The position numbers and the translations under genes are program-made. A stretch of DNA of 64,000 nt from Chelydra serpentina (lineage: Eukaryota; Chordata; Testudines; Chelydridae). Below are positions 12,136-39,301 of the stretch, in pieces. The stretch covers positions 4,340,001 to 4,404,000 of the forward strand of contig JBAIAC010000021.1 of the NCBI GenBank assembly GCA_037349315.1, in the 5' to 3' direction. Numbering within the stretch: the stretch's first letter is position 1; each line of letters opens with the position of its first letter. The notes under the pieces were generated by a model. It was not told the origin of the DNA and did not search any database. It saw only the letters and a program-made list of their open reading frames with translations.

Positions 12136-12460
12136 AAATGTGCTGCACACGCCTATGCGCCTGGATCCCCTTTCTAAAGATAGCTGAAGAACAATGAACA
12201 GGCTGGATGTGGAGGGAAAGCTAATGATTTGAGTTGGGTTGGACAAAAACAGTGCAAGCGAAGCCTTCAGCCAACCTAGGGCTGTGACCTTCACAAGCTC
12301 AGCAAGGTTGGGTGGGCATGCTCAGCGCAAGGGCAAGCCCCCTGTAGAGCAAACAGTGTTCTGTCAGACTTACTAGGTAGCACTTACTCTGGAGCATTAA
12401 TACTAAAGAGTCCAGAGGTGACTTACTAAAACAATAATAAGAAAATAAGAAAGAAAGAAA
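12136..12460. other. No supported gene
   Basis: Ordinary mixed-composition DNA with a short GAAAGAAAGAAA run near its end. Nothing further was identified. Confidence 0.4.
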
Positions 12461-12563
12461 TACTTGTGGCACCTTAGAGACTAACAAATTTATTTCAGCA
12501 TAAGCTTTCGTGGGTTAGTACCCACTTCATCGGATGCATGGAATGAAACATACAGTAGACAGA
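12461..12563 (-). mobile_element. PLE-A element, left part of the copy split by the Tx1/LTR nest
   Basis: The tail runs from TACTTGTGGCACCTTAGAG to CATACAGTAGACAGA. Its last five bases, ACAGA (12559-12563), recur at 29822-29826. There the same PLE continues (TTATTTATACAGTCAGAG) into a GIY-YIG reading frame, so the 17 kb in between are later insertions. Confidence 0.8.
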
Positions 12564-12567
12564 TGTA
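12564..12567. repeat. TGTA, first of three junction copies
   Basis: TGTA occurs here, at 20855-20858 between the two LINEs and at 29138-29141 on the right. It is the target duplication of the Tx1 insertions. It is also the first four bases of the LTR-like element that continues as GCAGGG at 29142. Confidence 0.75.
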
Positions 12568-12584
12568 CCTATTGGGTTCCGGGA

Positions 12585-12610
12585 AGTGGGCGGGCGGAAG
12601 CCCGCCCACT
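12585..12610 (-). promoter_or_regulatory. Perfect hairpin in the Tx1 3' UTR, copy 1
   Basis: An 11-bp arm AGTGGGCGGGC pairs perfectly with GCCCGCCCACT around a 4-nt loop. It sits within 45 bp of the element's 3' end and is conserved in copy 2. In LINEs such 3' structures are often what the reverse transcriptase recognises, so I infer that role here. Confidence 0.6.
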
Positions 12611-12709
12611 GCTAAAGGACCCCCCCTAATTTAAGGGGAGGATCCACAGGACCTGGAATCCAAATGAGTCCGGGGGACAACTAATGAAATAACAGGGTCA
12701 GGGGTGCGG

Positions 12710-15700
12710 TCACAGGGTTAAAAGAAGGGAGCCTGACGGGGACACCGAGCAGAGAACCCCGGACAGCGCCCACTGCTCCTCAAAGGCGTCAAGGGAGCCA
12801 GCGGACGCCGCCCAGAGGAACTCTGCTCGGATGCGTGATCGGACAAGGGATCGGAAACAGGCCCCACAGGCACCGGAGCCTCCATCGGCCAACCTCCTCT
12901 CCCTGGTTTTATAGATGGCCAATTTAGCCAGGGCCAGGAGGAGATTGACCAGGAGGTCCCGTGATTTCGTGGGGCGACGGATAGGGAGTGCATAGAGAAG
13001 GAGGTGAGGGGAAAAGTGCAGCCAAAATCGTAACAAAAGATTGGTGAGGAGCCGGAATAGGGACTGCAACCTGGCGCACTCCAGGTAGACGTGCACCAGG
13101 GTCTCCCTCACACCACAGAAGGGGCAGGTATCTGGGACAGGGGTAAACCGTGCCAAATACACACCCGTGCTCACGGCCCCATGAAGGAGTCGCCAGCTGA
13201 CATCCCCGGTGGGCCTCGGTATCAGAGTGGAATAGAGGCTGGCCCACCGGGGCTCCTCACCCTCTAGAGGTGGTAGAAGGTCCCGCCACTTTGTGTCGGG
13301 GCGGGACACGAGGGCGAGGAAATGAAGGGTGTGGAGCACGAGCGTGTAGAGGTGCTTCCGTGGCGCGGTTTGAAAACGGACCGGCTGTAAGGTGTGCAGC
13401 CGGCTCATGGAGAAGGGGCGGGGAGGCCGGTTGGGTCCACGGGGCAGGGGCCCGATGAAAAGGTCCGGGGGGCCTGGGGTGGAGGGTGGGCGGGGCGTGC
13501 CCTCGTGCAGGACCCGGTCGAGATAGACCCGAGCAGCGGGTGGCAGAGCGGCCCTCACCTCCTGGAGTACGCGCCGGGGAGTACAAGGCCTGGAGAGCCC
13601 CATGCGCTGAGCAAGCGTCAGGGGATCCAGCCAGTCTCCCCGGTCGTAGTCCAGGAGGTCTCCGACTCTGGTGACTTCTGCCAGGACCAACCTCTGGCGC
13701 ACCGAGGGGGACTCCGCCGCCTGCACACGAAGCTGGGGGTTGTGTAGCAGGGGCTCCGCGAGGAGATCTGCCCCCTCGGTGGCCGCCACGGACCTGGTCG
13801 CTGAGAATAGCTTCCAGGTCCGGAGGAGGTCCTGGTAGAAGACCGGCAGCCCGGAGAGGTCTCGCGGAAGGCCCCTCGGATCGAGATAAAGGAGCTGCCG
13901 GTCGTACCGGAGCCCTCGGAAGCGGCGCAGGAAGGCGTGCGCCAGTACGCTCCACGCCGGACTACCTGCACCATAAAGGAGTCTCTGCAGGGCCTGGAGG
14001 CGGAAGACACGGACCTGAGTGCGCAGGCACTTCAGGCCCTGCCCACCCTCCTCCAGGGGCAGATGGAGGACCCCTGCAGAGACCCAGTGCAGCCCTGGCC
14101 AGAAGAACTCCAGAATCGCCGTCCGGAGGTCGGCCAGGAGACCCGGGGCTGGGACCAGGGTGTTGAGCCGGTACCAGAGCATGGACAGGACTAGTTGATT
14201 GAGCACCAGTGCCCTCCCGCGAAGAGAGAGGCACCGGAGTAGTCCTGTCCATTTCCGGAGCCGCTCGGTCACCCTGCCCTGTAAACCGTGCCAGTTCTCC
14301 GGCGGAGACGGATGCGTGGCGGAAAGGTAAACGCCGAGATAGAGCAGCGGACCCGCGCTCCACCTGATGGCCTGAAGCGCGGGTGGGAGGGAGCTCGCCT
14401 GCCACCCGTCCCCTACCACCAGGCCAGAGCTCTTGACCCAGTTGACCCGGGCAGAGGAGGCCGCCGAGTAGATGGCCTGGCAAGCCTCCACCCGCACCAA
14501 GTCGCCCGGGTCCTGGACCACGAGGAGCACATCGTCGGCGTACGCCGACAGGACCAGCCGCAGCTCCGGCTCCCGCAGCACCAACCCCGTCAACCGCCTG
14601 CGAAGGAGACAGAGGAAGGGCTCGATCGCCAGAGCGTACAGCTGGCCCGAGAGGGGACACCCCTGCCGTACTCCGCGCCCGAAGCTGACCGGCTCAGTCA
14701 GGGTCCAGTTGAGCCTGACCAGACACTCTGCGGAAGCGTACAGCACCTGGAGAAAACCCACAAACTGGGGTCCAAAACCAAACGCTCGCAGAGTGTTCAG
14801 GAGATACTTGTGATCCACCCTGTCGAACGCTTTCTCCTGATCCAGGGACAGGAGGGCGAACGACAACCCATCCCTGCACCCAAGCTCCAAGAGATCCCGG
14901 ACCAGATACAGGTTATCAAAGATGGTACGGCCCGGGACGGTGTAGGTCTGGTCGGGGTGGATCACGTCCTCCAGCACGGACCCCAGCCGCAGCGAGATGG
15001 CCTTGGCTACGAGTTTGTAGTCCGTGCTGAGGAGCGAGACGGGACGCCAATTCCGTAAATCGCGGAGGTCCCCCTTCTTCGGCAGTAAGGCGAGCACAGC
15101 TCGCCTGCACGAGAGAGGGAGGACCCCGCTCTGCAAGGACTCGGCCCAGACGGTGACGAGGTCCGGGCCGAGGACGTCCCAGAACACACGGTAGAACTCC
15201 ACGGTCAGCCCGTCCATGCCCGGAGATTTATTGGTGGGCATGCGGCGGAGGGCTTCCGAGAACTCAGCCAGAGAGAGAGGCAGCTCTAGCCGGTCCCGGT
15301 CACCCGCGCTGACCGTTGGGAGTTGGTCCCAGAGCACTCTGCAAGCGGTGGCATCGGTCGGATCCGGGGAGAAAAGGTTGGCGTAGAAGGTCCTGGCCCT
15401 CTCGCACATCTCCACCGGATCCGTGAGGGGGGAGCCGTCCTCTGCCAGAAGGCAGGTGACGTGCTTCTTGGCCCCCCTCCTTTTCTCCAGGGCGTAGAAG
15501 AAGCGGGAGCCGCGATCCATCTCCCGAAGGAGGCGGATGCGGGATCGAACAAAAGCGCCCCGGGCCCGGTGGTCTTCGAGGGCCCGGAGCTCCTCCCGCT
15601 TCTCCCGGCACGCCCCACAGAGGGATGGATCCTCGGGGCTGGCGGCCAGACGCCTCTCCAGCTCTAAGACCTCCCGCTCCAACTGTTCTATTACCGCATC

Positions 15701-16630
15701 CCTCCGTCGGCTGGCGCCCCGAGTGTAGTTACGGCAGAAGAGCCGGGCGTGCACCTTCCCCAGGTCCCACCACCGCCGCGCCGAGGGAAAAGCGCGCCGC
15801 TGCCCTCGCCAGACCAACCAGAACTCCCGGAAGGACGCCACGAAGCCCACATCCTCCAGCAAGCTGTTGTTGAAATGCCAGTAGGCCGGCCCGGGCCTCT
15901 CCGCACAGAGAGAGGCCGTCACGGTGGCTAGGTGGTGATCTGAGAAAGGGGCCGGCCGAATGTCGGAGGAGTGGGCTCGGGAAAGGTGGAAGCGTGACAA
16001 GTAAATACGGTCCAACCGCGAGTGGTGCGACCGATGGGCTTCCACCCGGACATAGGTAAAGGTCGAAATGTCGTCCGGGTGGTGGTCGCGCCAGACGTCC
16101 ACCAGGGAGTGATGGTCGACAATCTCCCGGAGGACGTCCGCGGCGGCCGGGTTCTGCTCGGTTCCCGAGCGGTCCCGCTCCTCGAGGGTAGCATTAAAAT
16201 CCCCGCCCAGGACCAGGCACTCGTGAGGAGCCAAAGTGCCGAGGAAGGCGGACACCTGCTGATAAAAACATAGCCGCTCCGGGCCCGATGTCGGGGCATA
16301 GACGTTAACGAGATTGACCACTAGCCCCTCCATGCGGACCCGGAGGTGCAGCAGGCGACCCGGCACAGCCTCGGTAACCCCCAGCACCTCAGGCCGGAGG
16401 TTGGGGGAGAACAGGGTAGCCACTCCAGCTGAGCGACCCGTAAGATGGCTAAAGTAAACTCTATCCCCCCACTCCAGCCGCCAGCTGTCTTCGGCGGCCG
16501 GATCCGTGTGGGTCTCCTGCAGGAAAACCACAGAGTACCCCCCCTCCCGAAGGAAGGAGAGCACCTGGCACCTGCGGAGACCCATCCGACACCCCCGGGT
16601 GTTTAATGTGGCAAAGGTGACAGGTGCCAT
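12710..16630 (-). CDS. Tx1 LINE ORF2 protein, copy 1: APE endonuclease and reverse transcriptase
   Basis: 1306 residues, uninterrupted, close to the length I recall for the Xenopus Tx1 ORF2 (about 1308). It nicks the target and copies the LINE RNA from the nick. Residues 1-235 are the apurinic-type endonuclease, with N10, E39 (LQETH), D144/N146 (GGDFNA), D207 (RLDRIY) and D231-H232 (SDHH). A basic linker leads to the reverse transcriptase with D597 (LSLDQEKAFDRV), RQGCPLS at 655-661 and YADD at 697-700. Near residues 1169-1185 is a cysteine/histidine motif (CPFCG...HVYLEC) of the kind found after LINE reverse transcriptases. The ATG at 16630 overlaps the ORF1 stop as TAATG. By eye it differs from copy 2 at only five residues. 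It is apparently functional. Confidence 0.95.
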   Translation of the reverse strand: MAPVTFATLNTRGCRMGLRRCQVLSFLREGGYSVVFLQETHTDPAAEDSWRLEWGDRVYFSHLTGRSAGVATLFSPNLRPEVLGVTEAVPGRLLHLRVRMEGLVVNLVNVYAPTSGPERLCFYQQVSAFLGTLAPHECLVLGGDFNATLEERDRSGTEQNPAAADVLREIVDHHSLVDVWRDHHPDDISTFTYVRVEAHRSHHSRLDRIYLSRFHLSRAHSSDIRPAPFSDHHLATVTASLCAERPGPAYWHFNNSLLEDVGFVASFREFWLVWRGQRRAFPSARRWWDLGKVHARLFCRNYTRGASRRRDAVIEQLEREVLELERRLAASPEDPSLCGACREKREELRALEDHRARGAFVRSRIRLLREMDRGSRFFYALEKRRGAKKHVTCLLAEDGSPLTDPVEMCERARTFYANLFSPDPTDATACRVLWDQLPTVSAGDRDRLELPLSLAEFSEALRRMPTNKSPGMDGLTVEFYRVFWDVLGPDLVTVWAESLQSGVLPLSCRRAVLALLPKKGDLRDLRNWRPVSLLSTDYKLVAKAISLRLGSVLEDVIHPDQTYTVPGRTIFDNLYLVRDLLELGCRDGLSFALLSLDQEKAFDRVDHKYLLNTLRAFGFGPQFVGFLQVLYASAECLVRLNWTLTEPVSFGRGVRQGCPLSGQLYALAIEPFLCLLRRRLTGLVLREPELRLVLSAYADDVLLVVQDPGDLVRVEACQAIYSAASSARVNWVKSSGLVVGDGWQASSLPPALQAIRWSAGPLLYLGVYLSATHPSPPENWHGLQGRVTERLRKWTGLLRCLSLRGRALVLNQLVLSMLWYRLNTLVPAPGLLADLRTAILEFFWPGLHWVSAGVLHLPLEEGGQGLKCLRTQVRVFRLQALQRLLYGAGSPAWSVLAHAFLRRFRGLRYDRQLLYLDPRGLPRDLSGLPVFYQDLLRTWKLFSATRSVAATEGADLLAEPLLHNPQLRVQAAESPSVRQRLVLAEVTRVGDLLDYDRGDWLDPLTLAQRMGLSRPCTPRRVLQEVRAALPPAARVYLDRVLHEGTPRPPSTPGPPDLFIGPLPRGPNRPPRPFSMSRLHTLQPVRFQTAPRKHLYTLVLHTLHFLALVSRPDTKWRDLLPPLEGEEPRWASLYSTLIPRPTGDVSWRLLHGAVSTGVYLARFTPVPDTCPFCGVRETLVHVYLECARLQSLFRLLTNLLLRFWLHFSPHLLLYALPIRRPTKSRDLLVNLLLALAKLAIYKTRERRLADGGSGACGACFRSLVRSRIRAEFLWAASAGSLDAFEEQWALSGVLCSVSPSGSLLLTL

Positions 16631-16632
16631 TA
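16628..16632 (-). promoter_or_regulatory. TAATG stop/start overlap between ORF1 and ORF2
   Basis: On the minus strand the ORF1 stop TAA (16632-16630) and the ORF2 ATG (16630-16628) share an A. In other LINEs, such as insect SART1, this arrangement supports translation of ORF2 by termination and reinitiation. The five bases are also present in copy 2, but there ORF1 is out of frame. Confidence 0.65.
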
Positions 16633-19497
16633 GGAGGGCTGGGGGGGAGCCTCATCAGCGGGGACGCTCGTGGCCCCCATTGGGCCGCGCAGCAAACCGT
16701 GACCTACCCCGAAGGTAAGCAGGGAGTCGCGGAAGGTGCGGACCCGGTGGTAAGTTGCGGCACTCTGCTTCCCGGTCCCTTTACCCTCCCCCATGAGGGC
16801 CCTCGTGGCCCGGAGGATGCGGTTAAAGTCCCCCCAGCGCTGGAGAGCGAGCTGGACCTTGTTGCGGGAGCCGCGGACGTCTTCTAGAAACGCCCGCAGC
16901 TCGTCTCGCAGCTCATGGGGGGGCGGGGTCACTGGCCCCTGGGCGCCCTCCACTAGGGCCCCTGACACAGCCCCATGGCCCACCGAGACGGACAGGCAGG
17001 GGGCGGACCCACGACGTGGCGCCCGATGGGCTGGCACCATGTGGCCTGGCTCAGACACCATCTCAAAGGGGGGTGGCGGAGGGAAGAGAGCAACCCCTAG
17101 AGGGTCGGGACAGGGAGACACAAAGGCCGCTCCCTGGGGGTCATCCTCTGGGAAAGGAAAGGAGACTGCCCCAGGGGCGGCAACGGCATCGCGAGAGGTG
17201 GAGGGGGTAGGGATGGGATCGGGAGTAGGGGCAGGGCAGGGGTCGGGAGTAGGGTTGGGGAGAGGGATAGAGGCCAGATCCAGGGCCCCCGTAGCTGGGA
17301 CGCTGGGAGGTGGCTCTCCTCCATTGGGCTCAGGAGTCTGAGGGGTGGGAGCGGGGGCCCCAGTGATGCCGGGCTCAGGCTCGATGACAGGTGATACAGC
17401 CACGGCATCATCAGATGGAGAATGGTTAGCGGGGCCCCCTCCCGGGAAGGAAGTCAATTGCTCCGCACCAACGAGGGAGACCCCCGGTAACTCGGGTCCC
17501 GGCCGCAAAGCACTGGCCGTCGCCACAGCGGGCTCGGCGGCCATCAGAGGAGTGCCACCCACGGCCGGGCAGGTCAAAGAGTCCAGGGGATCCTCGGAGG
17601 TAGGAGAGGAGGCAGGGACCATAGGGAGGGGGCACGGGGAAGGGAGGTCCGGCGTGAGGTCGCTCAGGTCGAGGCCCGCTGGCAGAGGGTCGTCCTCCCC
17701 CTGGGTAACCGGGGTCAGACCCAGGGCCTCGATCTCCTCGTAGATAGAGGGGAGATCACACCCCACCACCCCGGGGCCCTCCCCGCCATCGCCCGGGGCA
17801 ACGCTCGCTTCGAGGCCCGCAGGGGCTTCAGCAGGTAAGGGGGCAGGAAGGGCTCCAGCAGAGGACTCTGTAGGAAGGGACTCCATCGGAGGGGCGGTGC
17901 TGCCTTCCGGTGCTGCCACGTCTGCCCTTGCCAGTAGTGGTGGACAAAAGCCACCCGCGGGGAAAGCGGAGGGCTCGGCATCGGTGCCCCCCTTCCTGGT
18001 CTTCCGGGGGGCCTCCGCATCCGATGGCAGGAGCGGAGCTCGAGCCTTCCGCTTGCCCCGCTTTCCCTGTACGAGTGTCCAGCCCTCCATGGCATCGTCT
18101 GTGGGCTGGTCGACAGGGGTTGGGTCAGGAGGCAAGGACGATGGTTTGGGGACTCGGGGAGGTAACGGCGGGGCAGCACAAGGGGGGGCAGACTCCCTCT
18201 GGGGCGGGCCATTTCCCACACCTGGCGTTACCCCTGCCACATCCTCCTCCACGGGCCCCGCCAGAGTGCGTACAACAGAGGCGGGGCTCTCCCGCTCGTC
18301 TAGGCGCGCTGGGGGGGGCACCCCCAGGGCCCGAGCGGGAGCAGCGGTGGACTGGGAAGGAGGAGGGGCAGCTCTGGGTGCCGGGCGGTCAAGGGCGCCG
18401 GCGGTGACGGGGCCGGCACCCTGCCGGGGCTTGGGGGTCTCGGATGCTCCTTCTTGCCGGGCCAAGGGACAGTCCCTCCGGACGTGCCCCAGCGCCCGGC
18501 AGAGGTAGCACCGGGCCTCCCCCGTCGAATAATGCACCCGGTAATGGGCCCCTTGGTAGGGGACTAGAAAAGACCCCTCAAGCGCCTCTCCGCCACGCGC
18601 CGCCGGCGGCAGTTGGAGATGCACCTGCCGGCGGAACGAGAGGATGTGGCGGAGGGTGGGGTCCTTGCAGCCCAGCGAGAGAGGGCTGAGGATGTTAATA
18701 GGTTTCCCCAGGCTGGAGAGGGCAGGCAATAGGGCAGCGTTGGGCAGGAAGGGCGGGACGGAGGTCAGGACTACGCGGACACCCAGGTCCTCCAGCGGCT
18801 CCAGGGGGACGAATACGCCCCCCACCGCCAGGCCCTTCTCTACCGCCTCTTGAGCGGCGGCCTCCGAAGCAAGGAAGAATACCGCCTTGCCGTACATCTT
18901 GGAGGCCGCCACAATGGCCATGGGCCCCACCACCCTCGCCAACGCCCGCACGTAGGTTTCGATGTGGGGCGAGGCGGGCACCAGGTGGCAGCGGATGCCA
19001 TGCCTCCTGGTCAAGGTGGGGAAGGGGCCCCGGCCACTAGGGATGGTACCAGAGGCAGTGGCTGGGAGAGAGGACTTGGCAGTTGGTGGGGGGGCCCCCG
19101 CCACCTGGGCATATGCTCTGGGGGCTGGAGGGGGGGCGCCCACGGTGCTGGTGGGGGGAACTACAGGGGGTGACGCCGCGGCCGGTGGTGGGGCCGTGGC
19201 AGTGGGGGTAGTCCCTGCCATGGAGGGCTTACTCTTTTTAGCGGGGCTCTTCCCCTTCCTTTTTCCCTGCCCCTTCCCGCCAGCTGGGGGTGTTCCCCGC
19301 AAATCAGAGGAGGCGAGGGACATGGCAGCAGCGGAGGTCACCCCCTTGCCTGTCACTGCCGGCACCCCAACAGGGGCGCTAGAAGGTGGTCTGGCAGCGG
19401 CAGTTGAGGTGGAGGCTAGGGGGGACGGCAGCGGGGCAGGCGGAGGAGGGGGGACAGGGTCCGCCACAGGGATTCCACCCGCCATGTCTCCCGCCAT
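16630..19497 (-). CDS. Tx1 LINE ORF1 protein, copy 1: RNA-binding, CCHC zinc knuckle
   Basis: 955 residues from the ATG at 19497 (MAGDMAGG). The frame is open further upstream to 19641, but copy 2 has an extra G in that stretch, so I take it as 5' UTR. The N-terminal quarter is alanine- and proline-rich with a lysine patch (KRKGKSPAKKSK). A central region (RHGIRCHLVP to HLQLPP) resembles RRM-type folds. One zinc knuckle, CYLCRALGHVRRDC, lies near 18470-18511. The C-terminal half is proline- and acid-rich, then ends in a basic, helical segment (LQRWGDFNRILRATRAL). The protein would coat the LINE RNA. Its TAA stop overlaps the ORF2 ATG by one base, consistent with termination-reinitiation. Confidence 0.88.
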   Translation of the reverse strand: MAGDMAGGIPVADPVPPPPPAPLPSPLASTSTAAARPPSSAPVGVPAVTGKGVTSAAAMSLASSDLRGTPPAGGKGQGKRKGKSPAKKSKPSMAGTTPTATAPPPAAASPPVVPPTSTVGAPPPAPRAYAQVAGAPPPTAKSSLPATASGTIPSGRGPFPTLTRRHGIRCHLVPASPHIETYVRALARVVGPMAIVAASKMYGKAVFFLASEAAAQEAVEKGLAVGGVFVPLEPLEDLGVRVVLTSVPPFLPNAALLPALSSLGKPINILSPLSLGCKDPTLRHILSFRRQVHLQLPPAARGGEALEGSFLVPYQGAHYRVHYSTGEARCYLCRALGHVRRDCPLARQEGASETPKPRQGAGPVTAGALDRPAPRAAPPPSQSTAAPARALGVPPPARLDERESPASVVRTLAGPVEEDVAGVTPGVGNGPPQRESAPPCAAPPLPPRVPKPSSLPPDPTPVDQPTDDAMEGWTLVQGKRGKRKARAPLLPSDAEAPRKTRKGGTDAEPSAFPAGGFCPPLLARADVAAPEGSTAPPMESLPTESSAGALPAPLPAEAPAGLEASVAPGDGGEGPGVVGCDLPSIYEEIEALGLTPVTQGEDDPLPAGLDLSDLTPDLPSPCPLPMVPASSPTSEDPLDSLTCPAVGGTPLMAAEPAVATASALRPGPELPGVSLVGAEQLTSFPGGGPANHSPSDDAVAVSPVIEPEPGITGAPAPTPQTPEPNGGEPPPSVPATGALDLASIPLPNPTPDPCPAPTPDPIPTPSTSRDAVAAPGAVSFPFPEDDPQGAAFVSPCPDPLGVALFPPPPPFEMVSEPGHMVPAHRAPRRGSAPCLSVSVGHGAVSGALVEGAQGPVTPPPHELRDELRAFLEDVRGSRNKVQLALQRWGDFNRILRATRALMGEGKGTGKQSAATYHRVRTFRDSLLTFGVGHGLLRGPMGATSVPADEAPPQPS

Positions 19498-20854
19498 GAT
19501 GGGCGGCAAGGGAGGGAGAGAGACACCAGAGAAAAGCAAGGGGGGGGGGAAAGGGAAGCAGGTCAACCACTCCTCCCCGCTAGGCTGTGGGCAGGGGAGG
19601 AGGGTGCCAAACTGGAGGGGGGGCAGATAGGGGGCTAGCAAGGACTCGGGGGGGGGGTGTCAGTCACCAACAGAAGGTGGACTTCCGGCTCCTCTAGCTG
19701 CACTAGGGGAGGGAAGGTTGCAACAACAGCAGGGGGGTGCAGTGATCAACCGAAATGGGGGGAGCTCAAGCGCATGGGAGGGGGCATGGGCACACAAAGG
19801 GAGGGGCAAATCAGGGCCAGGAGGGCCGCAAAGGCAGGGGAACGAACAGGCAGAGGGAACAAGGGGCTAGCTGTTGGGCCCGGCCAGGGCAAACAAACCA
19901 GGCTACAGCAGGAGAAGGGCGGGGCAGGGCAGGCAAACACACTGAAGCTAATAAGGGGCTGGGACAAAAGGTATTGGGGGGGGGGGCAATCAGCTTCAGG
20001 GGTAAACAGGGCAGGCAGCAAGGGGCAAAGCTGGGGGGTAGTCCAGGGGGGGCAGGGCATGTGCACCCACGTGCGCTTGCAGAAAAGTCAGTGATTGGCT
20101 GGCTGGCTGCTGCAGGCCCAAATGGTGGAAACGGGCGTGGCAGGCCAGGCAAGCAGCTGAAACCTGGAGGCAGGAGCTGGAAGCAGATGGTGAGCAGCCA
20201 GTGGGGGCAGTGGAGGGGGCAGCGGTGGTGGTGGGGGTTTGGAGGTGGGGGGACACAGATGAACCAGGGGGCGGGCTCCACACCACACCCCCTGTGTCCC
20301 CACAAACACAGTCAGGACCCCTCACCACAAAAGCGCAGGTTGAAAGTCACTTAGTCCGTAATGGCCCCCTCCACAGTGGTCTCCAGAGTCTCTGTGTGCT
20401 CCCCCAGCAGCCGGTGGTCTTCCCAGTCCTCTTCCTCCTCTAAGCTCCAGGAGCTCCCCAGGACAAATGCAGCAGCAACTGCAGCAGCTCCAACAACCCT
20501 GGCAGCCGGGCAGGAAGGGCCCCCCACAGGTGGTAGTAGTAGAGGGGCCCTGGCTCCTCCTTCCAGAGGGGGGAGGGGAAGGGGGGGCAGGTCAGCAGAG
20601 CCCCCCCCCTCACTCACTCACACAGTCAGTTGCAGTCCAGGGAAGGAGCACACCAACCAGCCAGCGGCAGCAGCAGTCCAAAGGAGGTAGAAGGGGCTCC
20701 AGCCCACAGCAGCAGTCCAAGGGTGGGAAAGGAGCTCCAGCTCCAGCTAGTAGGGCAGCTAGAGAGGAAGAAGGCTCCAGCCAGCAGCAGCCCAGGGAAG
20801 GAAAGGAGAGAGGGCCAGCCAGCAGGACAGCCCAAGCAGACTGACCTCCCTCTG
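19498..20854 (-). promoter_or_regulatory. Tx1 LINE 5' UTR, copy 1
   Basis: About 1.36 kb of GC- and purine-rich DNA upstream of ORF1. The distal 250 bp hold repeated CAGCAGTCCAA and GCTCCAG words. It should contain the internal promoter, but no TATA-like motif stood out. The many plus-strand frames across it are composition artefacts. The 5' end is at the CTCTG before TGTA. Confidence 0.5.
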
Positions 20855-20858
20855 TGTA
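20855..20858. repeat. TGTA, junction copy between the two LINEs
   Basis: The 5' end of copy 1 (CTCCCTCTG) is followed by TGTA and then the 3' end of copy 2 (CCTATTGGG). It matches the outer junctions at 12564 and 29138. Confidence 0.75.
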
Positions 20859-20875
20859 CCTATTGGGTTCCGGGA

Positions 20876-20901
20876 AGTGGGCGGGCGGAAGCCCGCCCAC
20901 T
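20876..20901 (-). promoter_or_regulatory. Perfect hairpin in the Tx1 3' UTR, copy 2
   Basis: Same 11-bp stem and 4-nt loop as at 12585-12610, at the same distance from the 3' end. Confidence 0.6.
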
Positions 20902-21000
20902 GCTAAAGGACCCCCCCTAATTTAAGGGGAGGATCCACAGGACCTGGAATCCAAATGAGTCCGGGGGACAACTAATGAAATAACAGGGTCAGGGGTGCGG

Positions 21001-24000
21001 TCACAGGGTTAAAAGAAGGGAGCCTGACGGGGACACCGAGCAGAGAACCCCGGACAGCGCCCACTGCTCCTCAAAGGCGTCAAGGGAGCCAGCGGACGCC
21101 GCCCAGAGGAACTCTGCTCGGATGCGTGATCGGACAAGGGATCGGAAACAGGCCCCACAGGCACCGGAGCCGCCATCGGCCAACCTCCTCTCCCTGGTTT
21201 TATAGATGGCCAATTTAGCCAGGGCCAGGAGGAGATTGACCAGGAGGTCCCGTGACTTTGTGGGGCCACGGATAGGGAGTGCATAGAGAAGGAGGTGAGG
21301 GGAAAAGTGCAGCCAAAATCGTAACAAAATATTGGTGAGGAGCCGGAATAGGGACTGCAACCTGGCGCACTCCAGGTAGACGTGCACCAGGGTCTCTCTC
21401 ACACCACAGAAGGGGCAGGTATCTGGGACAGGGGTAAACCGCGCCAAATACACGCCCGTGCTCACGGCCCCATGAAGGAGTCGCCAGCTGACATCCCCGG
21501 TGGGCCTCGGTATCAGAGTGGAATAGAGGCTGGCCCACCGGGGCTCCTCACCCTCTAGAGGTGGTAGAAGGTCCCGCCACTTTGTGTCGGGGCGGGACAC
21601 GAGGGCGAGGAAATGAAGGGTGTGGAGCACGAGCGTGTAGAGGTGCTTCCGTGGCGCGGTTTGAAAACGGACCGGCTGTAAGGTGTGCAGCCGGCTCATG
21701 GAGAAGGGGCGGGGAGGCCGGTTGGGTCCACGGGGCAGGGGCCCGATGAAAAGGTCCGGGGGGCCTGGGGTGGAGGGTGGGCGGGGCGTGCCCTCGTGCA
21801 GGACCCGGTCGAGATAGACCCGAGCAGCGGGTGGCAGAGCGGCCCTCACCTCCCGGAGTACGCGCCGGGGAGTACAAGGCCTGGAGAGCCCCATGCGCTG
21901 AGCAAGCGTCAGGGGATCCAGCCAGTCTCCCCGGTCGTAGTCCAGGAGGTCTCCGACTCTGGTGACTTCTGCCAGGACCAACCTCTGGCGCACCGAGGGG
22001 GACTCCGCCGCCTGCACACGAAGCTGGGGGTTGTGTAGCAGGGGCTCCGCGAGGAGATCTGCCCCCTCGGTGGCCGCCACGGACCTGGTCGCTGAGAATA
22101 GCTTCCAGGTCCGGAGGAGGTCCTGGTAGAAGACCGGCAGCCCGGAGAGGTCTCGCGGAAGGCCCCTCGGATCGAGATAAAGGAGCTGCCGGTCGTACCG
22201 GAGCCCTCGGAAGCGGCGCAGGAAGGCGTGCGCCAGTACGCTCCACGCCGGACTACCTGCACCATAAAGGAGTCTCTGCAGGGCCTGGAGGCGGAAGACA
22301 CGGACCTGAGTGCGCAGGCACTTCAGGCCCTGCCCGCCCTCCTCCAGGGGCAGATGGAGGACCCCTGCAGAGACCCAGTGCAGCCCTGGCCAGAAGAACT
22401 CCAGAATCGCCGTCCGGAGGTCGGCCAGGAGACCCGGGGCTGGGACCAGGGTGTTGAGCCGGTACCAGAGCATGGACAGGACCAGTTGATTGAGTACCAG
22501 TGCCCTCCCGCGAAGGGAGAGGCACCGGAGTAGTCCTGTCCATTTCCGGAGCCGCTCGGTCACCCTGCCCTGTAAACCGTGCCAGTTCTCCGGCGGAGAC
22601 GGATGCGTGGCGGAAAGGTAAACGCCCAGATAGAGCAGCGGACCCGCGCTCCACCTGATGGCCTGAAGCGCGGGTGGGAGGGAGCTCGCCTGCCACCCGT
22701 CCCCTACCACCAGGCCAGAGCTCTTGACCCAGTTGACCCGGGCAGAGGAGGCCGCCGAGTAGATGGCCTGGCAAGCCTCCACCCGCACCAAGTCGCCCGG
22801 GTCCTGGACCACGAGGAGCACATCGTCGGCGTATGCCGACAGGACCAGCCGCAGCTCCGGCTCCCGCAGCACCAACCCCGTCAACCGCCTGCGAAGGAGA
22901 CAGAGGAAGGGCTCGATCGCCAGAGCGTACAGCTGGCCCGAGAGGGGACACCCCTGCCGTACTCCGCGCCCGAAGCTGACCGGCTCAGTCAGGGTCCAGT
23001 TGAGCCTGACCAGACACTCTGCGGAAGCGTACAGCACCTGGAGAAAACCCACAAACTGGGGTCCGAAACCAAACGCTCGCAGAGTGTTCAGGAGATACTT
23101 GTGATCCACCCTGTCGAACGCTTTCTCCTGATCCAGGGACAGGAGGGCGAACGACAACCCATCCCTGCACCCAAGCTCCAAGAGATCCCGGACCAGATAC
23201 AGGTTATCAAAGATGGTACGGCCCGGGACGGTGTAGGTCTGGTCGGGGTGGATCACGTCCTCCAGCACGGACCCCAGCCGCAGCGAGATGGCCTTGGCTA
23301 CGAGTTTGTAGTCCGTGCTGAGGAGCGAGACGGGACGCCAATTCCGTAAATCGCGGAGGTCCCCCTTCTTCGGCAGTAAGGCGAGCACAGCTCGCCTGCA
23401 CGAGAGAGGGAGGACCCCGCTCTGCAAGGACTCGGCCCAGACGGTGACGAGGTCCGGGCCGAGGACGTCCCAGAACACGCGGTAGAACTCCACGGTCAGC
23501 CCGTCCATGCCCGGAGATTTATTGGTGGGCATGCGGCGGAGGGCTTCCGAGAACTCAGCCAGAGAGAGAGGCAGCTCTAGCCGGTCCCGGTCACCCGCGC
23601 TGACCGTTGGGAGTTGGTCCCAGAGCACTCTGCAAGCGGTGGCATCGGTCGGGTCCGGGGAGAAAAGGTTGGCGTAGAAGGTCCTGGCCCTCTCGCACAT
23701 CTCCACCGGATCCGTGAGGGGGGAGCCGTCCTCTGCCAGAAGGCAGGTGACGTGCTTCTTGGCCCCCCTCCTTTTCTCCAGGGCGTAGAAGAAGCGGGAG
23801 CCGCGATCCATCTCCCGAAGGAGGCGGATGCGGGATCGAACAAAAGCGCCCCGGGCCCGGTGGTCTTCGAGGGCCCGGAGCTCCTCCCGCTTCTCCCGGC
23901 ACGCCCCACAGAGGGATGGATCCTCGGGGCTGGCGGCCAGACACCTCTCCAGCTCTAAGACCTCCCGCTCCAACTGTTCTATTACCGCATCCCTCCGTCG

Positions 24001-24921
24001 GCTGGCGCCCCGAGTGTAGTTACGGCAGAAGAGCCGGGCGTGCACCTTCCCCAGGTCCCACCACCGCCGCGCCGAGGGAAAAGCGCGCCGCTGCCCTCGC
24101 CAGACCAACCAGAACTCCCGGAAGGACGCCACGAAGCCCACATCCTCCAGCAAGCTGTTGTTGAAATGCCAGTAGGCCGGCCCGGGCCTCTCCGCACAGA
24201 GAGAGGCCGTCACGGTGGCTAGGTGGTGATCTGAGAAAGGGGCCGGCCGAATGTCGGAGGAGTGGGCTCGGGAAAGGTGGAAGCGTGACAAGTAAATACG
24301 GTCCAACCGCGAGTGGTGCGACCGATGGGCTTCCACCCGGACATAGGTAAAGGTCGAAATGTCGTCCGGGTGGTGGTCGCGCCAGACGTCCACCAGGGAG
24401 TGATGGTCGACAATCTCCCGGAGGACGTCCGCGGCGGCCGGGCTCTGCTCGGTCCCCGAGCGGTCCCGCTCCTCGAGGGTGGCATTAAAATCCCCGCCCA
24501 GGACCAGGCACTCGTGGGGAGCCAAAGTGCCGAGGAAGGCGGACACCTGCTGATAAAAACATAGCCGCTCTGGGCCCGATGTCGGGGCATAGACATTAAC
24601 GAGATTGACCACTAGCCCTTCCATGCGGACCCGGAGGTGCAGCAGGCGACCCGGCACAGCCTCGGTAACCCCCAGCACCTCGGGCCGGAGGTTGGGGGAG
24701 AACAGGGTAGCCACTCCAGCTGAGCGACCCGTAAGATGGCTAAAGTAAACTCTATCCCCCCACTCCAGCCGCCAGCTGTCTTCGGCGGCCGGATCCGTGT
24801 GGGTCTCCTGCAGGAAAACCACAGAGTACCCCCCCTCCCGAAGGAAGGAGAGCACCTGGCACCTGCGGAGACCCATCCGACACCCCCGGGTGTTTAATGT
24901 GGCAAAGGTGACAGGTGCCAT
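21001..24921 (-). CDS. Tx1 LINE ORF2 protein, copy 2: APE endonuclease and reverse transcriptase
   Basis: 1306 residues with all endonuclease and reverse transcriptase motifs named for copy 1, including LSLDQEKAFDRV and YADD. The differences I see are N160S, R328C and three near the C-terminal part: Q to R in the VLREV segment, L to I in LTNILLRF, and R to G in PIRGPTK. None touches a catalytic residue. The frame is also open for eight codons upstream of the ATG at 24921, because a G was lost from the run near 24932. Apparently functional, though its own ORF1 is not. Confidence 0.94.
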   Translation of the reverse strand: MAPVTFATLNTRGCRMGLRRCQVLSFLREGGYSVVFLQETHTDPAAEDSWRLEWGDRVYFSHLTGRSAGVATLFSPNLRPEVLGVTEAVPGRLLHLRVRMEGLVVNLVNVYAPTSGPERLCFYQQVSAFLGTLAPHECLVLGGDFNATLEERDRSGTEQSPAAADVLREIVDHHSLVDVWRDHHPDDISTFTYVRVEAHRSHHSRLDRIYLSRFHLSRAHSSDIRPAPFSDHHLATVTASLCAERPGPAYWHFNNSLLEDVGFVASFREFWLVWRGQRRAFPSARRWWDLGKVHARLFCRNYTRGASRRRDAVIEQLEREVLELERCLAASPEDPSLCGACREKREELRALEDHRARGAFVRSRIRLLREMDRGSRFFYALEKRRGAKKHVTCLLAEDGSPLTDPVEMCERARTFYANLFSPDPTDATACRVLWDQLPTVSAGDRDRLELPLSLAEFSEALRRMPTNKSPGMDGLTVEFYRVFWDVLGPDLVTVWAESLQSGVLPLSCRRAVLALLPKKGDLRDLRNWRPVSLLSTDYKLVAKAISLRLGSVLEDVIHPDQTYTVPGRTIFDNLYLVRDLLELGCRDGLSFALLSLDQEKAFDRVDHKYLLNTLRAFGFGPQFVGFLQVLYASAECLVRLNWTLTEPVSFGRGVRQGCPLSGQLYALAIEPFLCLLRRRLTGLVLREPELRLVLSAYADDVLLVVQDPGDLVRVEACQAIYSAASSARVNWVKSSGLVVGDGWQASSLPPALQAIRWSAGPLLYLGVYLSATHPSPPENWHGLQGRVTERLRKWTGLLRCLSLRGRALVLNQLVLSMLWYRLNTLVPAPGLLADLRTAILEFFWPGLHWVSAGVLHLPLEEGGQGLKCLRTQVRVFRLQALQRLLYGAGSPAWSVLAHAFLRRFRGLRYDRQLLYLDPRGLPRDLSGLPVFYQDLLRTWKLFSATRSVAATEGADLLAEPLLHNPQLRVQAAESPSVRQRLVLAEVTRVGDLLDYDRGDWLDPLTLAQRMGLSRPCTPRRVLREVRAALPPAARVYLDRVLHEGTPRPPSTPGPPDLFIGPLPRGPNRPPRPFSMSRLHTLQPVRFQTAPRKHLYTLVLHTLHFLALVSRPDTKWRDLLPPLEGEEPRWASLYSTLIPRPTGDVSWRLLHGAVSTGVYLARFTPVPDTCPFCGVRETLVHVYLECARLQSLFRLLTNILLRFWLHFSPHLLLYALPIRGPTKSRDLLVNLLLALAKLAIYKTRERRLADGGSGACGACFRSLVRSRIRAEFLWAASAGSLDAFEEQWALSGVLCSVSPSGSLLLTL

Positions 24922-27779
24922 TAGGAGGGCTGGGGGGATCCTCATCAGCGGGGACGCTCGCGGCCCCCATTGGGCCGCGCAGCAAACCGTGACCTACCCC
25001 GAAGGTAAGCAGGGAGTCGCGGAAGGTGCGGACCCGGTGGTAAGTCGCGGTACTCTGCTTCCCGGTCCCTTTACCCTCCCCCATGAGGGCCCTCGTGGCC
25101 CGGAGGATGCGGTTAAAGTCCCCCCAGCGCTGGAGAGCGAGCTGTACCTTGTTGCGGGAGCCGCGGACGTCTTCTAGAAACGCCCGCAGCTCGTCTCGCA
25201 GCTCATGGGGGGGCGGGGTCACTGGCCCCTGGTCGCCCTCCACTAGGGCCCCTGACACAGCCCCATGGCCCACAGACAGGCAGGGGGCGGACCCACGACG
25301 TGGCGCCCGATGGGCTGGCACCATGTGGCCTGGCTCAGACCCCATCTCAAAGGGGGGTGGCGGAGGGAAGAGAGCAACCCCTAGAGGGTCGGGACAGGGA
25401 GACACAAAGGCCGCTCCCTGGGGGTCATCCTCTGGGAAAGGAAAGGAGACTGCCCCAGGGACGGCAACGGCATCGCGAGAGGTGGAGGGGGTAGGGATGG
25501 GATCGGGAGTAGGGGCAGGGCAGGGGTCGGGAGTAGAGTTGGGGAGAGGTATAGAGGCCAGATCCAGGGCCCCCGTAGCTGGGACGCTGGGAGGTGGCTC
25601 TCCTCCATCGGGCTCAGGAGTCTGAGGGGTGGGAGCGGGGGCCCCAGTGATGCCGGGCTCAGGCTCGATGGCAAGTGAAACAGCCACGGCATCATCAGAT
25701 GGAGAATGGTTAGCGGGGCCCCCTCCCGGGAAGGAAGTCGATTGCTCCGCGCCAACGAGGGAGACCCCCGGTAAGTCGGGTCCCGGCCGCAAAGCACTGG
25801 CCATCGCCACAGTGGGCTCGGCGGCCATCAGAGGAGTGCCACCCACGGCCGGGCAGGTCAAAGAGGCCAGGGGATCCTCGGAGGTAGGAGAGGAGGCAGG
25901 GACCATAGGGAGGGGGCACGGGGAAGGGAGGTCCGGAGTGAGGTCGCTCAGGTCGAGGCCCGCTGGCAGAGGGTCGTCCTCCCCCTGGGTAACCGGGGTC
26001 AGACCCAGGGCCTCGATCTCCTCGTAGATAGAGGGGAGATCACACCCCACCACCCCGGGGCCCTCCCCGCCATCGCCCGGGGCAACGCTCGCTTCGAGGC
26101 CCGCAGGGGCTTCAGCAGGTAAGGGGGCAGGAAGGGCTCCAGCAGAGGACTCCGTAGGAAGGGACTCCATCGGAGGGGCGGTGCTGCCTTCCGGTGCTGC
26201 CACGTCTGCCCTTGCCAGTAGTGGTGGACAAATTCCACCCGCGGGGAAAGCGGAGGGCTCGGCATCGGTGCCCCCCTTCCTGGTCTTCCGGGGGGCCTCC
26301 GCATCCGATGGCAGGAGCGGAGCTCGAGCCTTCCGCTTGCCCCGCTTTCCCTGTACGAGTGTCCAGCCCTCCATGGCATCGTTTGTGGGCTGGTCGACAG
26401 GGGTTGGGTCAGGGGGCAAGGATGATGGTTTGGGGCCTCGGGGAGGTAACGGTGGGGCAGCACAAGGGGGGGCAGACCCCCTCTGGGGCGGGCCATTTCC
26501 CACACCTGGCGTTACCCCTGCCACACCCTCCTCCACGGGCCCCGCCAGAGTGCGTACAACAGAGGTGGGGCTCTCCTGCTCGTCTGGGCGCGCTGGGGGG
26601 GCACCCCCAGGGCCCGAGCGGGAGCAGCGGTGGACTGGGAAGGAGGAGGGGCGGCTCTGGGCGCCGGGTGGTCAAGGGCGCCGGCGGTGACGGGGCCGGC
26701 ACCCTGCCGGGGCTCGGGGGTCTCGGATGCTCCTTCTTGCCGGGCCAAGGGACAGTCCCTCCGGACGTGCCCCAGCGCCCGGCAGAGGTAGCACCGGGCC
26801 TCCCCCGTCGAATAATGCACCCGGTAATGGGCCCCTTGGTAGGGGACTAGAAAAGACCCCTCAAGCGCCTCTCCGCCACGCGCCGCCGGCGGCAGTTGAA
26901 GATGCACCTGCCGGCGGAACGAGAGGATGTGGCGGAGGGTGGGGTCCTTGCAGCCCAGCAAGAGAGGGCTGAGGATGTTAATAGGTTTCCCCAGGGTGGA
27001 GAGGGCAGGCAATAGGGCAGCGTTGGGCAGGAAGGGCGGGACGGAGGTCAGGACTACGCGGACACCCAGGTCCTCCAGCGGCTCCAGGGGGACGAATACG
27101 CCCCCCACCGCCAGGCCCTTCTCTACCGCCTCTTGAGCGGCGGCCTCCGAAGCAAGGAAGAATACCGCCTTGCCGTACATCTTGGAGGCCGCCACAATGG
27201 CCATGGGCCCCACCACCCTCGCCAACGCCCGCACGTAGGTTTCGATGTGGGGCGAGGCGGGCACCAGGTGGCAGCGGATGCCATGCCTCCTGGTCAAGGT
27301 GGGGAAGGGGCCCCGGCCACTAGGGATGGTACCAGAGGCAGTGGCTGGGAGAGAGGACTTGGCAGTTGGTGGGGGGGCCCCCGCCACCTGGGCATATGCT
27401 CTGGGGGCTGGAGGGGGGGCGCCCACGGTGCTGGTGGGGGAACTACAGGGGGTGACGCCGCGGCCGGTGGTGGGGCCGTGGCAGTGGGGGTAGTCCCTGC
27501 CATGGAGGGCTTACTCTTTTTAGCGGGGCTCTTCCCCTTCCTTTTTCCCTGCCCCTTCCCGCCAGCTGGGGGTGTTCCCCGCAAATCAGAGGAGGCGAGG
27601 GACATGGCAGCAGCGGAGGTCACCCCCTTGCCTGTCACTGCCGGCACCCCAACAGGGGCGCTAGAAGGTGGTCTGGCAGCAGCAGTTGAGGTGGAGGCTA
27701 GGGGGGACGGCAGCGGGGCAGGCGGAGGAGGGGGGACAGGGTCCGCCACAGGGATTCCACCCGCCATGTCTCCCGCCAT
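24752..27779 (-). pseudogene. Tx1 LINE ORF1, copy 2, with three homopolymer frameshifts
   Basis: It starts at the ATG at 27779 (MAGDMAGG). Compared with copy 1 it has one G fewer in each of three runs. Near 27433 GGTGGGGGAAC replaces a six-G run. Near 26595 seven G replace eight. Near 24932 six G replace seven. The zinc knuckle (about 26785) lies in the middle reading segment. After the last shift the frame misses its stop and reads on into the start of ORF2, ending at 24752. All three lesions are in G homopolymers, so sequencing or assembly error is possible. Confidence 0.8.
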
Positions 27780-29137
27780 GATGGGCGGCAAGGGAGGGAG
27801 AGAGACACCAGAGAAAAGCAAGGGGGGGGGGGAAAGGGAAGCAGGTCAACCACTCCTCCCCGCTAGGCTGTGGGCAGGGGAGGAGGGTGCCAAACTGGAG
27901 GGGGGGCAGATAGGGGGCTAGCAAGGACTCGGGGGGGGGGGGTGTCAGTCACCAACAGAAGGTGGACTTCCGGCTCCTCTAGCTGCACTAGGGGAGGGAA
28001 GGTTGCAACAACAGCAGGGGGGTGCAGTGATCAACCGAAATGGGGGGAGCTCAAGCGCATGGGAGGGGGCATGGGTACACAAAGGGAGGGGCAAATCAGG
28101 GCCAGGAGGGCCGCAAAGGCAGGGGAACAAACAGGCAGAGGGAACAAGGGGCTAGCTGTTGGGCCCGGCCAGGGCAAACAAACCAGGCTACAGCAGGAGA
28201 AGGGCGGGGCAGGGCAGGCAAACACACTGAAGCTAACAAGGGGCTGGGACAAAAGGTATGGGGGGGGGGGCAATCAGCTTCAGGGGTAAACAGGGCAGGC
28301 AGCAAGGGGCAAAGCTGGGGGGTAGTCCAGGGGGGGCAGGGCATGTGCACCCACGTGCGCTTGCAGAAAAGTCAGTGATTGGCTGGCTGGCTGCTGCAGG
28401 CCCAAATGGTGGAAACGGGCGTGGCAGGCCAGGCAAGCAGCTGAAACCTGGAGGCAGGAACTGGAAGCAGATGGTGAGCAGCCAGTGGGGGCAGTGGAGG
28501 GAGCAGCGGTGGTGGTGGGGGTTTGGAGGTGGGGGGACACAGATGAACCAGGGGGCGGGCTCCACACCACACCCCCTGTGTCCCCACAAACACAGTCAGG
28601 ACCCCTCACCACAAAAGCGCAGGTTGAAAGTCACTTAGTCCGTAATGGCCCCCTCCACAGTGGTCTCCAGAGTCTCTGTGTGCTCCCCCAGCAGCCGGTG
28701 GTCTTCCCAGTCCTCTTCCTCCTCTAAGCTCCAGGAGCTCCCCAGGACAAATGCAGCAGCAACTGCAGCAGCTCTAGCAACCCTGGCAGCCAGGCAGGAA
28801 GGGCCCCCCACAGGTGGTAGTAGTAGAGGGGCCCTGGCTCCTCCTTCCCGAGGGGGGAGGGGAAGGGGGGGGCAGGTCAGCAGAGCCCCCCCTCACTCAC
28901 TCACACAGTCAGTTGCAGTCCAGGGAAGGAGCACACCAACCAGCCAGCGGCAGCAGCAGTCCAAAGGAGGTAGAAGGGGCTCCAGCCCACAGCAGCAGTC
29001 CAAGGGTGGGAAAGGAGCTCCAGCTCCAGCTAGTAGGGCAGCTAGAGAGGAAGAAGGCTCCAGCCAGCAGCAGCCCAGGGAAGGAAAGGAGAGAGGGCCA
29101 GCCAGCAGGACAGCCCAAGCAGACTGACCTCCCTCTG
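27780..29137 (-). promoter_or_regulatory. Tx1 LINE 5' UTR, copy 2
   Basis: Nearly identical to 19498-20854, with small differences in G-run lengths and a few substitutions. It ends at CTCTG directly before TGTA (29138) of the LTR-like element. Confidence 0.5.
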
Positions 29138-29821
29138 TGTAGCAGGGTGGAACCCTGCTCCTGCCCGGAGGGGCTGGAAATAGCCCTGGGAGAGGGCTGA
29201 GGCTGAAAGCTGGGCTGATTGGCAAGGAAGCCACAGGTGTGGCCAGTTAATCAGGCCCCAGCTGGCCCTTATAAGAGGGCAGTGGGCCTGGAGCAAACAC
29301 ACTCTCTCTCTGCCTTTAGAGGGAGAAGGGCTTGGCTGCAGGGACCTGAGCAGGTACCTAGGGTGGAGCAGGGCTGGGGAAAGGCCAGAGGAGCTGGGGA
29401 GCTCTGGCCTGAGAAAACCCCAGGCTGTGGCCTAGGGTTAGGCCCATTTAGGTACTGGGGTTGCGGGGACAACCCACGGGTAGGCTGAGGCAGCAGGTCC
29501 AAACCCCCTTTGTCTGTGATGAGTGGCTTATACTGCAGTCTGCCCCAGGGCGCGGGGGCTAGCTGGTGACTGGCAGTAGCCTACGACTGAGGCGAGGTGG
29601 GGATAGTGGGTTGGGGGTTCCCCTGGGGAGGGGAGACCCAGATCTAGGGGTACTGCCAGGGGGCAGCACCCCAGTTAAAGGGGCACCGGGTCCTGGGAGG
29701 GACACGGGGCCAGAGTGGACAGGCGGATCACTGGCCTGCAGAGGGCGCTCCAGAGGCTGGTGAGCTAATTCCCTGGAGAAACCAGCAGGAGGCACCGCAG
29801 GGGTGGTCCGGCCCTGCCACA
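29138..29821 (+). mobile_element. LTR-like TG...CA element with 5-bp target duplication (host of the Tx1 insertions)
   Basis: It begins TGTAGCAGGGTGG and ends CCCTGCCACA. The first 13 bases resemble the reverse complement of the last ones (TGTGGCAGGGCC). ACAGA lies on both outer sides (12559-12563 and 29822-29826) once the LINEs are removed. Inside, CCTTATAAGAGGGC near 29270 looks like a core promoter. Similar elements with the same end style and 5-bp duplications are at 42988-43787 and 56206-56755. I read it as a solo LTR of an unidentified retroelement, but long inverted ends leave a DNA transposon possible. Confidence 0.65.
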
Positions 29822-32548: not shown

Positions 32549-33014
32549 TGTTAGGCCCAAAAACTGAAAAACATGCTTATCTCGGCTTCTGCTTGTTATC
32601 CTAGTAAACATGCTTATCTCAGTCCTCACGGTGGTTTCCCATGCATGAAGCTGTACGTATACAGGATGTATAGAAGATATATGGACAAGGGGAGCGGGCT
32701 GGACGGATGCCCCCGACCCTGGGAAAGGAATGTGAAGGACGGGAAGCTAAATAGATGTATCCTGATTACTACTAGAACTGAATTTAAACAATGCATGGGT
32801 TAGCAGAATTTAGACACGCTAAGTTGTTTGTCTCTCTGTATAAAAGAAGCCCAGTTGTGCTTGTAAGGTGTCTCTCTTTCTCGGGCACTAGCCGAGTAGA
32901 GCACCCTTTCAGCTGACTGACTAATAAAGGGTCTGGTATCTGTCCTCTTGTCTCTCCGTGCCTCCTTGGGGTAATTGGGCAGCTCCAGGGGGAAACGAGC
33001 CCATTTGGCTAACA
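32549..33014 (+). repeat. ERV 5' LTR
   Basis: Begins TGTTAGGC and ends GGCTAACA, with 6-bp inverted termini. TATAAAAG at 32839-32846 and AATAAA at 32923-32928 mark the promoter and poly(A) signal about 80 bp apart. R is therefore short. An internal duplication, ACATGCTTATCTC, occurs twice in U3 (near 32571 and 32608). Confidence 0.93.
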
Positions 33015-33016
33015 AA

Positions 33017-39282: not shown

Positions 39283-39301
39283 GGCTCTCAAAATGCTTTT
39301 T

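Follow-up and report, generated by a model that had tools for sequence, protein, structure and literature searches.

Full-length copies of a Tx1-type LINE in Chelydra serpentina probably insert at the 5' edge of one family of small LTR retrotransposons

Introduction

Target-primed reverse transcription is established for long interspersed nuclear elements (LINEs), and several of these elements insert at defined places. Many members of the Tx1 clade insert sequence-specifically. Tx1 of Xenopus inserts into a DNA transposon, and we know of no head-to-tail arrays of it; Keno belongs to the same Tx1 clade, and the endonuclease of R2 is of the restriction-like type. In the papers cited here, the targets of site-specific LINEs are ribosomal RNA (rRNA) genes, U2 small nuclear RNA (snRNA) genes, telomeres and microsatellites (PMC2718515, PMC4640811, PMC3747384, PMC8869645, PMC2861651). 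R1 of Drosophila forms tandem arrays whose units are separated by the target duplication, and the explanation given is that a new copy inserts into the duplication lying 5' of an older one (PMC2718515). Keno and Utopia target the U2 snRNA gene, Keno with an endonuclease of the apurinic/apyrimidinic (APE) type, and one Utopia family is at times found in tandem (PMC4640811). Completion of the 5' joint has been tied to template jumping and, in R1, to 28S sequence carried by the transcripts (PMC2718515). Here we consider a 64,000-nucleotide stretch of the genome of the turtle Chelydra serpentina (assembly GCA_037349315.1, contig JBAIAC010000021.1, positions 4,340,001 to 4,404,000; hereafter the window), in which two full-length units of a Tx1-type LINE lie head to tail just inside the edge of a solo long terminal repeat (LTR). 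No LINE aimed at an LTR came up in our literature search, which covered sources other than Repbase and most subscription journals.

Results

The two units occupy positions 12568..20854 (unit 1, 8,287 bp) and 20859..29137 (unit 2, 8,279 bp), both on the minus strand, with the 3' end at the left of each (12568 in unit 1) and the 5' end at the right (20854). Copies of TGTA at 12564-12567, 20855-20858 and 29138-29141 give the order TGTA-unit-TGTA-unit-TGTA, the termini of the units are identical, and self-alignment of 12564-20858 with 20855-29141 returns 98.87% identity over 8,299 columns. A first-pass annotation made from the window's letters alone had described two full-length head-to-tail units with TGTA at each junction and identical ends, and this description holds. 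Aligned with MAFFT, the units differ by 79 substitutions and by 16 gap columns in nine indels, seven of which fall within runs of G or C, one adjoins a G run and one, of 6 bp, lies elsewhere. There is no poly(A) tail, and the 3' end (12568..12650, minus strand) forms a strong terminal hairpin, in the sense direction GTGGGCGGGC-TTCC-GCCCGCCCAC.

The third TGTA forms bases 1-4 of a solo LTR of 684 bp on the plus strand (29138..29821; TGTAGCAGGG...CCTGCCACA, with a TATA box at about 29270), and the first (12564..12567, plus strand) represents the same four bases at the left of the array, a layout that recurs at 12/12 testable loci. The left flank (12450..12563, no strand assigned) is an older interspersed repeat, which may be Penelope-like, broken by the LTR; it ends in ACAGA (12559-12563), the first copy of the LTR's 5-bp target duplication, and the second copy follows the LTR at 29822..29826 (plus strand). 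When the outer flanks are joined, the repeat aligns unbroken to two further copies that the window contains, at 42016-42179 (84%) and 6254-6352 (85%). The LTR has thus inserted into an older repeat and duplicated 5 bp of it, and since TGTA is its first four bases, the LINE array lies four bases inside its edge. Scans of the window with Rfam (gathering scores) and for transfer RNA genes found no RNA gene as a target.

A complete small element of this LTR family, L124, is bounded by the duplication CCGGG and has LTRs identical at 672/681 positions, an 835-bp interior with no long open reading frame (ORF), and a purine-rich tract before the second LTR. With TG...CA ends, two LTRs around an interior in L124 and a duplication of constant short length, the target has the make-up of an LTR retrotransposon. 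At two occupied loci (C8:120.70M and C8:62.76M) the sequence on the left is similar to the purine-rich tract in front of a 3' LTR, and 3' LTRs therefore seem to receive LINE insertions too.

To place this locus among the other copies, we took a census of junctions in the window's own genome assembly (2.28 Gb). Counting only exact matches to the 18-mer CAGACTGACCTCYCTCTG, for which the control pattern gave 1 match, there are 90 intact LINE 5' ends: 53 adjoin an LTR start, 36 the following unit and 1 a LINE 3' region, with none elsewhere. The 53 are made up of 41 found by pattern and matched by coordinate together with 6 and a further 6 read individually, and the 36 of 35 found by the joint pattern and one that was read. 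The LTR-junction pattern had 61 matches, against 7 for its reversed control, and only the 41 coinciding with an exact 5' end were counted. At the single remaining end (L130, C180:307511-307586) the intact 5' end is joined to a LINE 3' region without roughly the last 44 bases, the terminal hairpin included. Before the census the 5' exits of 33 loci had been read, many of them overlapping with it, and all enter an LTR (13, and then 20/20). The first-pass annotation had proposed that the target is the end of a repeat, and the LTR start at all 53 intact 5' ends not abutting a LINE gives that repeat its identity.

The LTR's own duplication was sought at 17 LTR loci (13 with an intact LINE 5' end and 4 with truncated copies), 12 of which were readable on both sides, and in all 12 it flanks LTR and LINE together: 11 pairs are exact (ACAGA, AACTT, GGGGG, GGGAC, GGTAC, CACCT, CCAAG, GGCTG, GCTAC, GGCTG and CAGTG) and one matches at 4/5 bases (GCGCC/GTGCC). 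Among the 40 LTRs most similar to that of the window, 37 were read as empty at the start, all of them beginning TGTAG, 2 were occupied and 1 was unread; the 37 stand for fewer than 37 elements, as some are the two LTRs of one element.

A 3'-end query gave 1,847 first-look candidates (the patterns for a full 3'-end count are GTAGAGGGGTGGAACCC and GTACCTATTGGGTTCCGGG), and the best 40 were scored and their 3'-side flanks read. The LINE is adjoined by xGTA in 39/40 and by GATA in one; beyond this the outer flank varies between loci, except where the neighbour is the 5' end of another unit. The reason is that the LTR contributes no more than four bases to the 3' side, the constant target being on the 5' side. 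Random flanks at other copies had been named in the first-pass annotation as the outcome that would count against a specific target; they are indeed what is found on the 3' side, where they would have misled, and the 5'-side flank is constantly the LTR. Of these 40 ends, 28 belong to arrays or to single copies, full-length or truncated, that lead to an LTR.

Our reading of these junctions, to which we give a probability of about 0.93, is that full-length insertions of this LINE are strictly specific to the 5' edge of one family of small LTR retrotransposons, with arrays forming by re-insertion. The joint between units, CTCTGNGTACCTATTGGG, occurs 41 times at 26 loci and its reversed control not at all, so the window's array is probably no one-off assembly duplication; the joint in the window, with the regenerated target bases at 20855..20858 (plus strand), is of this type (CTCTGNGTA-CCTATTGGG). 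The first-pass annotation had suggested a search for other arrays, and these NGTA joints mark them, with the target regenerated. Within arrays the joints are spaced 8,264-8,307 bp apart, with up to six consecutive joints by exact pattern. The array on C10 has seven full-length units, and that on C4 (7.96-8.02 Mb), where seven joints and the LTR end were read, has at least eight.

Two other origins of such arrays need to be weighed. The first is that one event made the dimer, either because the reverse transcriptase, on reaching the 5' end of a first RNA, jumped to the 3' end of a second, or because a read-through dimer RNA was copied, and two distinct source RNAs would account for the 1% divergence of the window's units. 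An RNA end would then have to supply NGTA at every joint, however, and the C10 and C4 arrays go well past the dimer. Separate events at one site are also recorded at C8:8.9M, where two truncated copies, broken at different points, stand in tandem with one of them between the other and the LTR, and on C10, where a truncated copy of 531 bp, with a duplication of its own of about 15 bp, precedes the full-length units. Within its array the latter copy is the most distant from the LTR, which fits a model in which newcomers land next to the LTR. We consider a single-event dimer unlikely.

The second is that the window's pair arose by tandem duplication of one inserted copy, through unequal exchange or replication slippage at the TGTA micro-homology. 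Duplication would leave a four-base joint of the same appearance, and it does occur in this family, in the identical unit pairs on C10 and the equally truncated repeats described below. Against it stands the pattern of differences in ORF2, where the units differ by 22 synonymous and 5 nonsynonymous changes, a ratio of nonsynonymous to synonymous rates (dN/dS) of 0.08. When the same mutation classes were drawn at random onto ORF2 in 5,000 runs, the mean was 8.0 synonymous changes and the maximum 17, so that 0/5,000 simulations reached 22, which is incompatible with the neutral decay of a dead copy. The pair is also as diverged as copies at separate loci, at 0.8% over the 3' 1.7 kb compared with a between-locus range of 0.23-1.14% and a median of 0.54% (87 comparisons). 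Since a duplicated copy would decay neutrally and the ORF2 differences are mostly synonymous, the units diverged in two active lineages, and we regard a duplication origin of this pair as extremely improbable. Judged from their sequences, the window's two units are separate insertions.

Several observations weigh against a reading of strict specificity and growth by re-insertion, or narrow what it covers. The census was limited to exact 18-mers, and the best 40 3' ends are all 100% identical over 201 bp, a sample that favours young copies. At the 5' joint GTA is preceded by T in 17 of the 33 loci read and by C or G in the others; as the outer left side is TGTA at 12 intact loci where it was read (of 13), the duplication is of 3-4 bp and at times inexact. 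Of the best 40 3' ends, 12 belong to 5'-truncated copies of 228-2,379 bp. Reading some 7.4-9.6 kb past the break and 0.7 kb beyond the opposite end revealed no LTR beside them, and in 11 of these cases there was no clear target duplication either. These copies confine strict site specificity to full-length insertions. On the side of the arrays, ORF1 differs between the window's units by 16 synonymous and 27 nonsynonymous changes, which indicates weak constraint and, taken alone, would not contradict tandem duplication. Six of the seven C10 units were compared over 1.7 kb, and unit 2 is identical to unit 4 and unit 3 to unit 5, so a two-unit block has been duplicated there; the other C10 pairs differ by 0.41-0.71%, like copies at different loci. 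Tandem truncated copies with equal truncation points are found at C8:65.33M, C8:62.76M and C9:2.37M, and these equal-length repeats are best explained by duplication. Arrays therefore grow both by re-insertion and by block duplication, and some joints represent no new insertion. The first-pass annotation had held re-insertion to be the builder of arrays; this stands for the independent units of the window, to which local duplication must be added for C10 and the equal truncated repeats.

A different view of the specificity is that only a short motif such as TGTAGC is recognised and that the LTR is a common carrier of it. At a TGTA^GCC site the off-target truncated copy L063 is flanked by an 18-bp duplication, and the off-target 3' joints are xGTA in 11/12. 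These ends share no common right flank, and apart from L063 no duplication was found farther off. The LTR start TGTRGCAGGG, allowing at most one mismatch, is matched 31 times within the 64-kb window by itself, where 18 matches are expected, yet 0/90 exact intact 5' ends lie outside an LTR or LINE, and we think it very unlikely that a short motif suffices for full-length insertion. The recent truncated copies off the LTR (in genome G000, loci L049, L053, L054, L055, L057-L059, L061-L064 and L066; three of them break at LINE position 311) may be insertions finished in another way or a short non-autonomous derivative.

The LTR bases next to the LINE bear on how the 5' joint is completed. Full-length copies have a duplication of GTA or TGTA only, and truncated copies in LTRs can have longer ones of about 15-16 bp that reach into the LTR's own flank (C8:65.33M, C10). 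The standard LTR start, G[CT][AG]GGG, is present in 34/35 empty LTRs (chosen by similarity to the window's LTR, the two LTRs of L124 excluded) and in 4/4 with truncated copies, and in only 4 of the 39 LTRs beside an intact LINE 5' end (Fisher p 1.7e-15, intact-adjoining versus empty), where 16 begin GCAGAG and 8 GAGGGG. Among the 61 pattern matches a T joint goes with GCAGAG in 22/27 and a C or G joint with GAGGGG in 9/11 (p 0.0005). The junction base N in CTCTG-N-GTA (T, C or G) varies with the start of the LTR that follows and seldom changes within an array.

The altered bases could simply mark a favoured LTR subfamily, with no leader borne on the RNA, and the LTR-start patterns that bear on the choice are GTAGCAGAGTGG, GTAGCAGAGTGGAACCC and GTAGAGGGGTGG. 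Because empty LTRs were sampled by their similarity to the window's LTR, such a subfamily could have escaped us. The LTRs that start GCAGAG are mostly not each other's nearest relatives, however: of six compared, a single one shares its start with its nearest relative, and divergence between the bodies reaches 24%. The standard start kept by LTRs with truncated copies also speaks against a subfamily, which we regard as a real but rather doubtful alternative. We read the non-standard bases beside intact 5' ends as LTR sequence brought in on the 5' end of the LINE RNA, and the pattern suggests that this RNA may carry an LTR leader. The LTR might then be both landing site and launch pad. Full-length LINE RNAs would start in, or read out of, the LTR in antisense, and the leader would pair with the next LTR, complete the 5' joint and leave a scar of donor bases. 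This proposal is tentative, and we would put it a little short of an even chance; if true, it would account for full-length copies being found only at LTRs or LINE units, for a scar that does not follow LTR kinship, and for the scar-free LTRs that hold truncated copies.

In both units ORF2 has an APE-type endonuclease followed by a reverse transcriptase, and residues 3-844 match LINE-1 ORF2 structures. In unit 1 it is intact, with 1,306 residues (12710..16630, minus strand; Pfam Exo_endo_phos 1e-16, RVT_1 8.7e-31), and in unit 2 it is likewise intact (21001..24945, minus strand, with the start that matches unit 1's at 24921; RVT_1 8.7e-31, Exo_endo_phos 2.9e-16). The best matches are sea-turtle proteins, among them P0005 from Caretta at 84% over the full length, and the best named family is Xenopus Tx1, at 57% identity over the full length; a search against viral and prokaryote contigs gave nothing usable. 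In a tree of 26 ORF2 proteins, in which L1, R1 and other clades are absent as named outgroups, the turtle units fall into a 100/100 clade with Xenopus TX1, a sturgeon protein and one JGI protein, and the pairing with Xenopus itself reaches only 84/76. The identity to Xenopus Tx1 and the fully supported clade agree with the Tx1-type lineage that the first-pass annotation had named. Membership of the R1 clade was considered and does not fit, as the target is an LTR and not the 28S rRNA gene and the tree shows a Tx1 relationship. ORF1 of unit 1 is an open frame of 1,003 residues (16630..19641, minus strand; start codon provisional) with one CCHC-like motif seen by eye and no Pfam match, and it has relatives in the sea turtles Caretta, Lepidochelys and Natator and in records from Chrysemys, Emys, Emydura and Chelonoidis. 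The corresponding region of unit 2 (24752..27426, minus strand) falls into at least two frames because of single-base changes in runs of G that could be either true mutations or errors of sequencing.

Many models in the sea-turtle protein sets (Caretta, Lepidochelys and Natator; P0001-P0120) are chained copies of LINE ORF2, some with unrelated Pfam domains, and gene models of Caretta and Lepidochelys chain several ORF2 pieces in one direction. These protein gene models suggest that Caretta and Lepidochelys may also carry LINE arrays. In 39 Caretta models, hand-picked for chaining from 120 proteins, the similarity between adjacent ORF2 pieces did not exceed that between pieces of different models (medians 0.836 and 0.836, p 0.07), a comparison that points in the direction of the genome data and is superseded by them.

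The window contains other repeats. To the left of the array lies a hAT-like transposase remnant (9709-11832, plus strand) with two open frames (DUF4371 and Dimer_Tnp_hAT). To the right is a young LTR element with LTRs at 32549-33014 and 39313-39778, identical at 465/466 positions, whose interior (33015-39312) has pieces of reverse transcriptase, RNase H and an integrase of the murine leukaemia virus (MLV) type in separate frames. Tandem repeats are present at 57712-58095 (period about 58 bp) and 41386-41699.

Discussion

The recurrent use of a single site, and its regeneration with each full-length copy, can be arranged into a simple cycle. The endonuclease would nick the LTR strand after base 4, at TGTA^G, as the joints imply, and the freed 3' end would prime reverse transcription from the 3' end of the LINE RNA, which would set the LINE antisense to the LTR. 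The LINE's 5' end abuts GTA and the LTR beyond it, whatever process makes this joint, and the target is thereby restored on the 5' side of the LINE. Later RNAs could insert at the restored target, as the independent units of the window show to have happened more than once, and each would come to lie between the older units and the LTR. Restoring the target each time yields head-to-tail arrays with NGTA joints, which may then also lengthen by ordinary duplication of whole units.

For a LINE, the terminus of an LTR is a target that is dispersed and that multiplies, since the spread of the LTR element supplies new landing sites. The first-look candidates, rough figures for unconfirmed copies, number 3,813 LTR starts and 185 LINE 5' ends, so the targets seem far from exhausted. 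Here is a vertebrate LINE of the APE type whose target is short and defined, and its dozens of natural full-length insertions allow junction rules to be worked out. With it one could ask whether an RNA must carry target sequence for a full-length insertion to be finished, a question that bears on how LINE 5' ends are completed.

The turtle LINE resembles Tx1 (Tx1L) of Xenopus laevis in its clade, in its APE endonuclease and in inserting inside another mobile element, which is a DNA transposon in Xenopus and an LTR element here. Keno and Utopia share its target specificity, but their target is the U2 snRNA gene, and the endonuclease of Utopia is restriction-like. R2 has an rDNA target and a restriction-like endonuclease, whereas the turtle element pairs an APE-type enzyme with an LTR target. 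In the logic of its arrays the turtle LINE follows R1 of Drosophila, with units separated by NGTA at 41 joints and with entry at the 5'-side duplication, an order for which the truncated copy on C10 is indirect evidence. R1 itself belongs to another clade and makes a 14-bp duplication in the 28S rRNA gene, whereas the turtle LINE duplicates 3-4 bp at the edge of an LTR.

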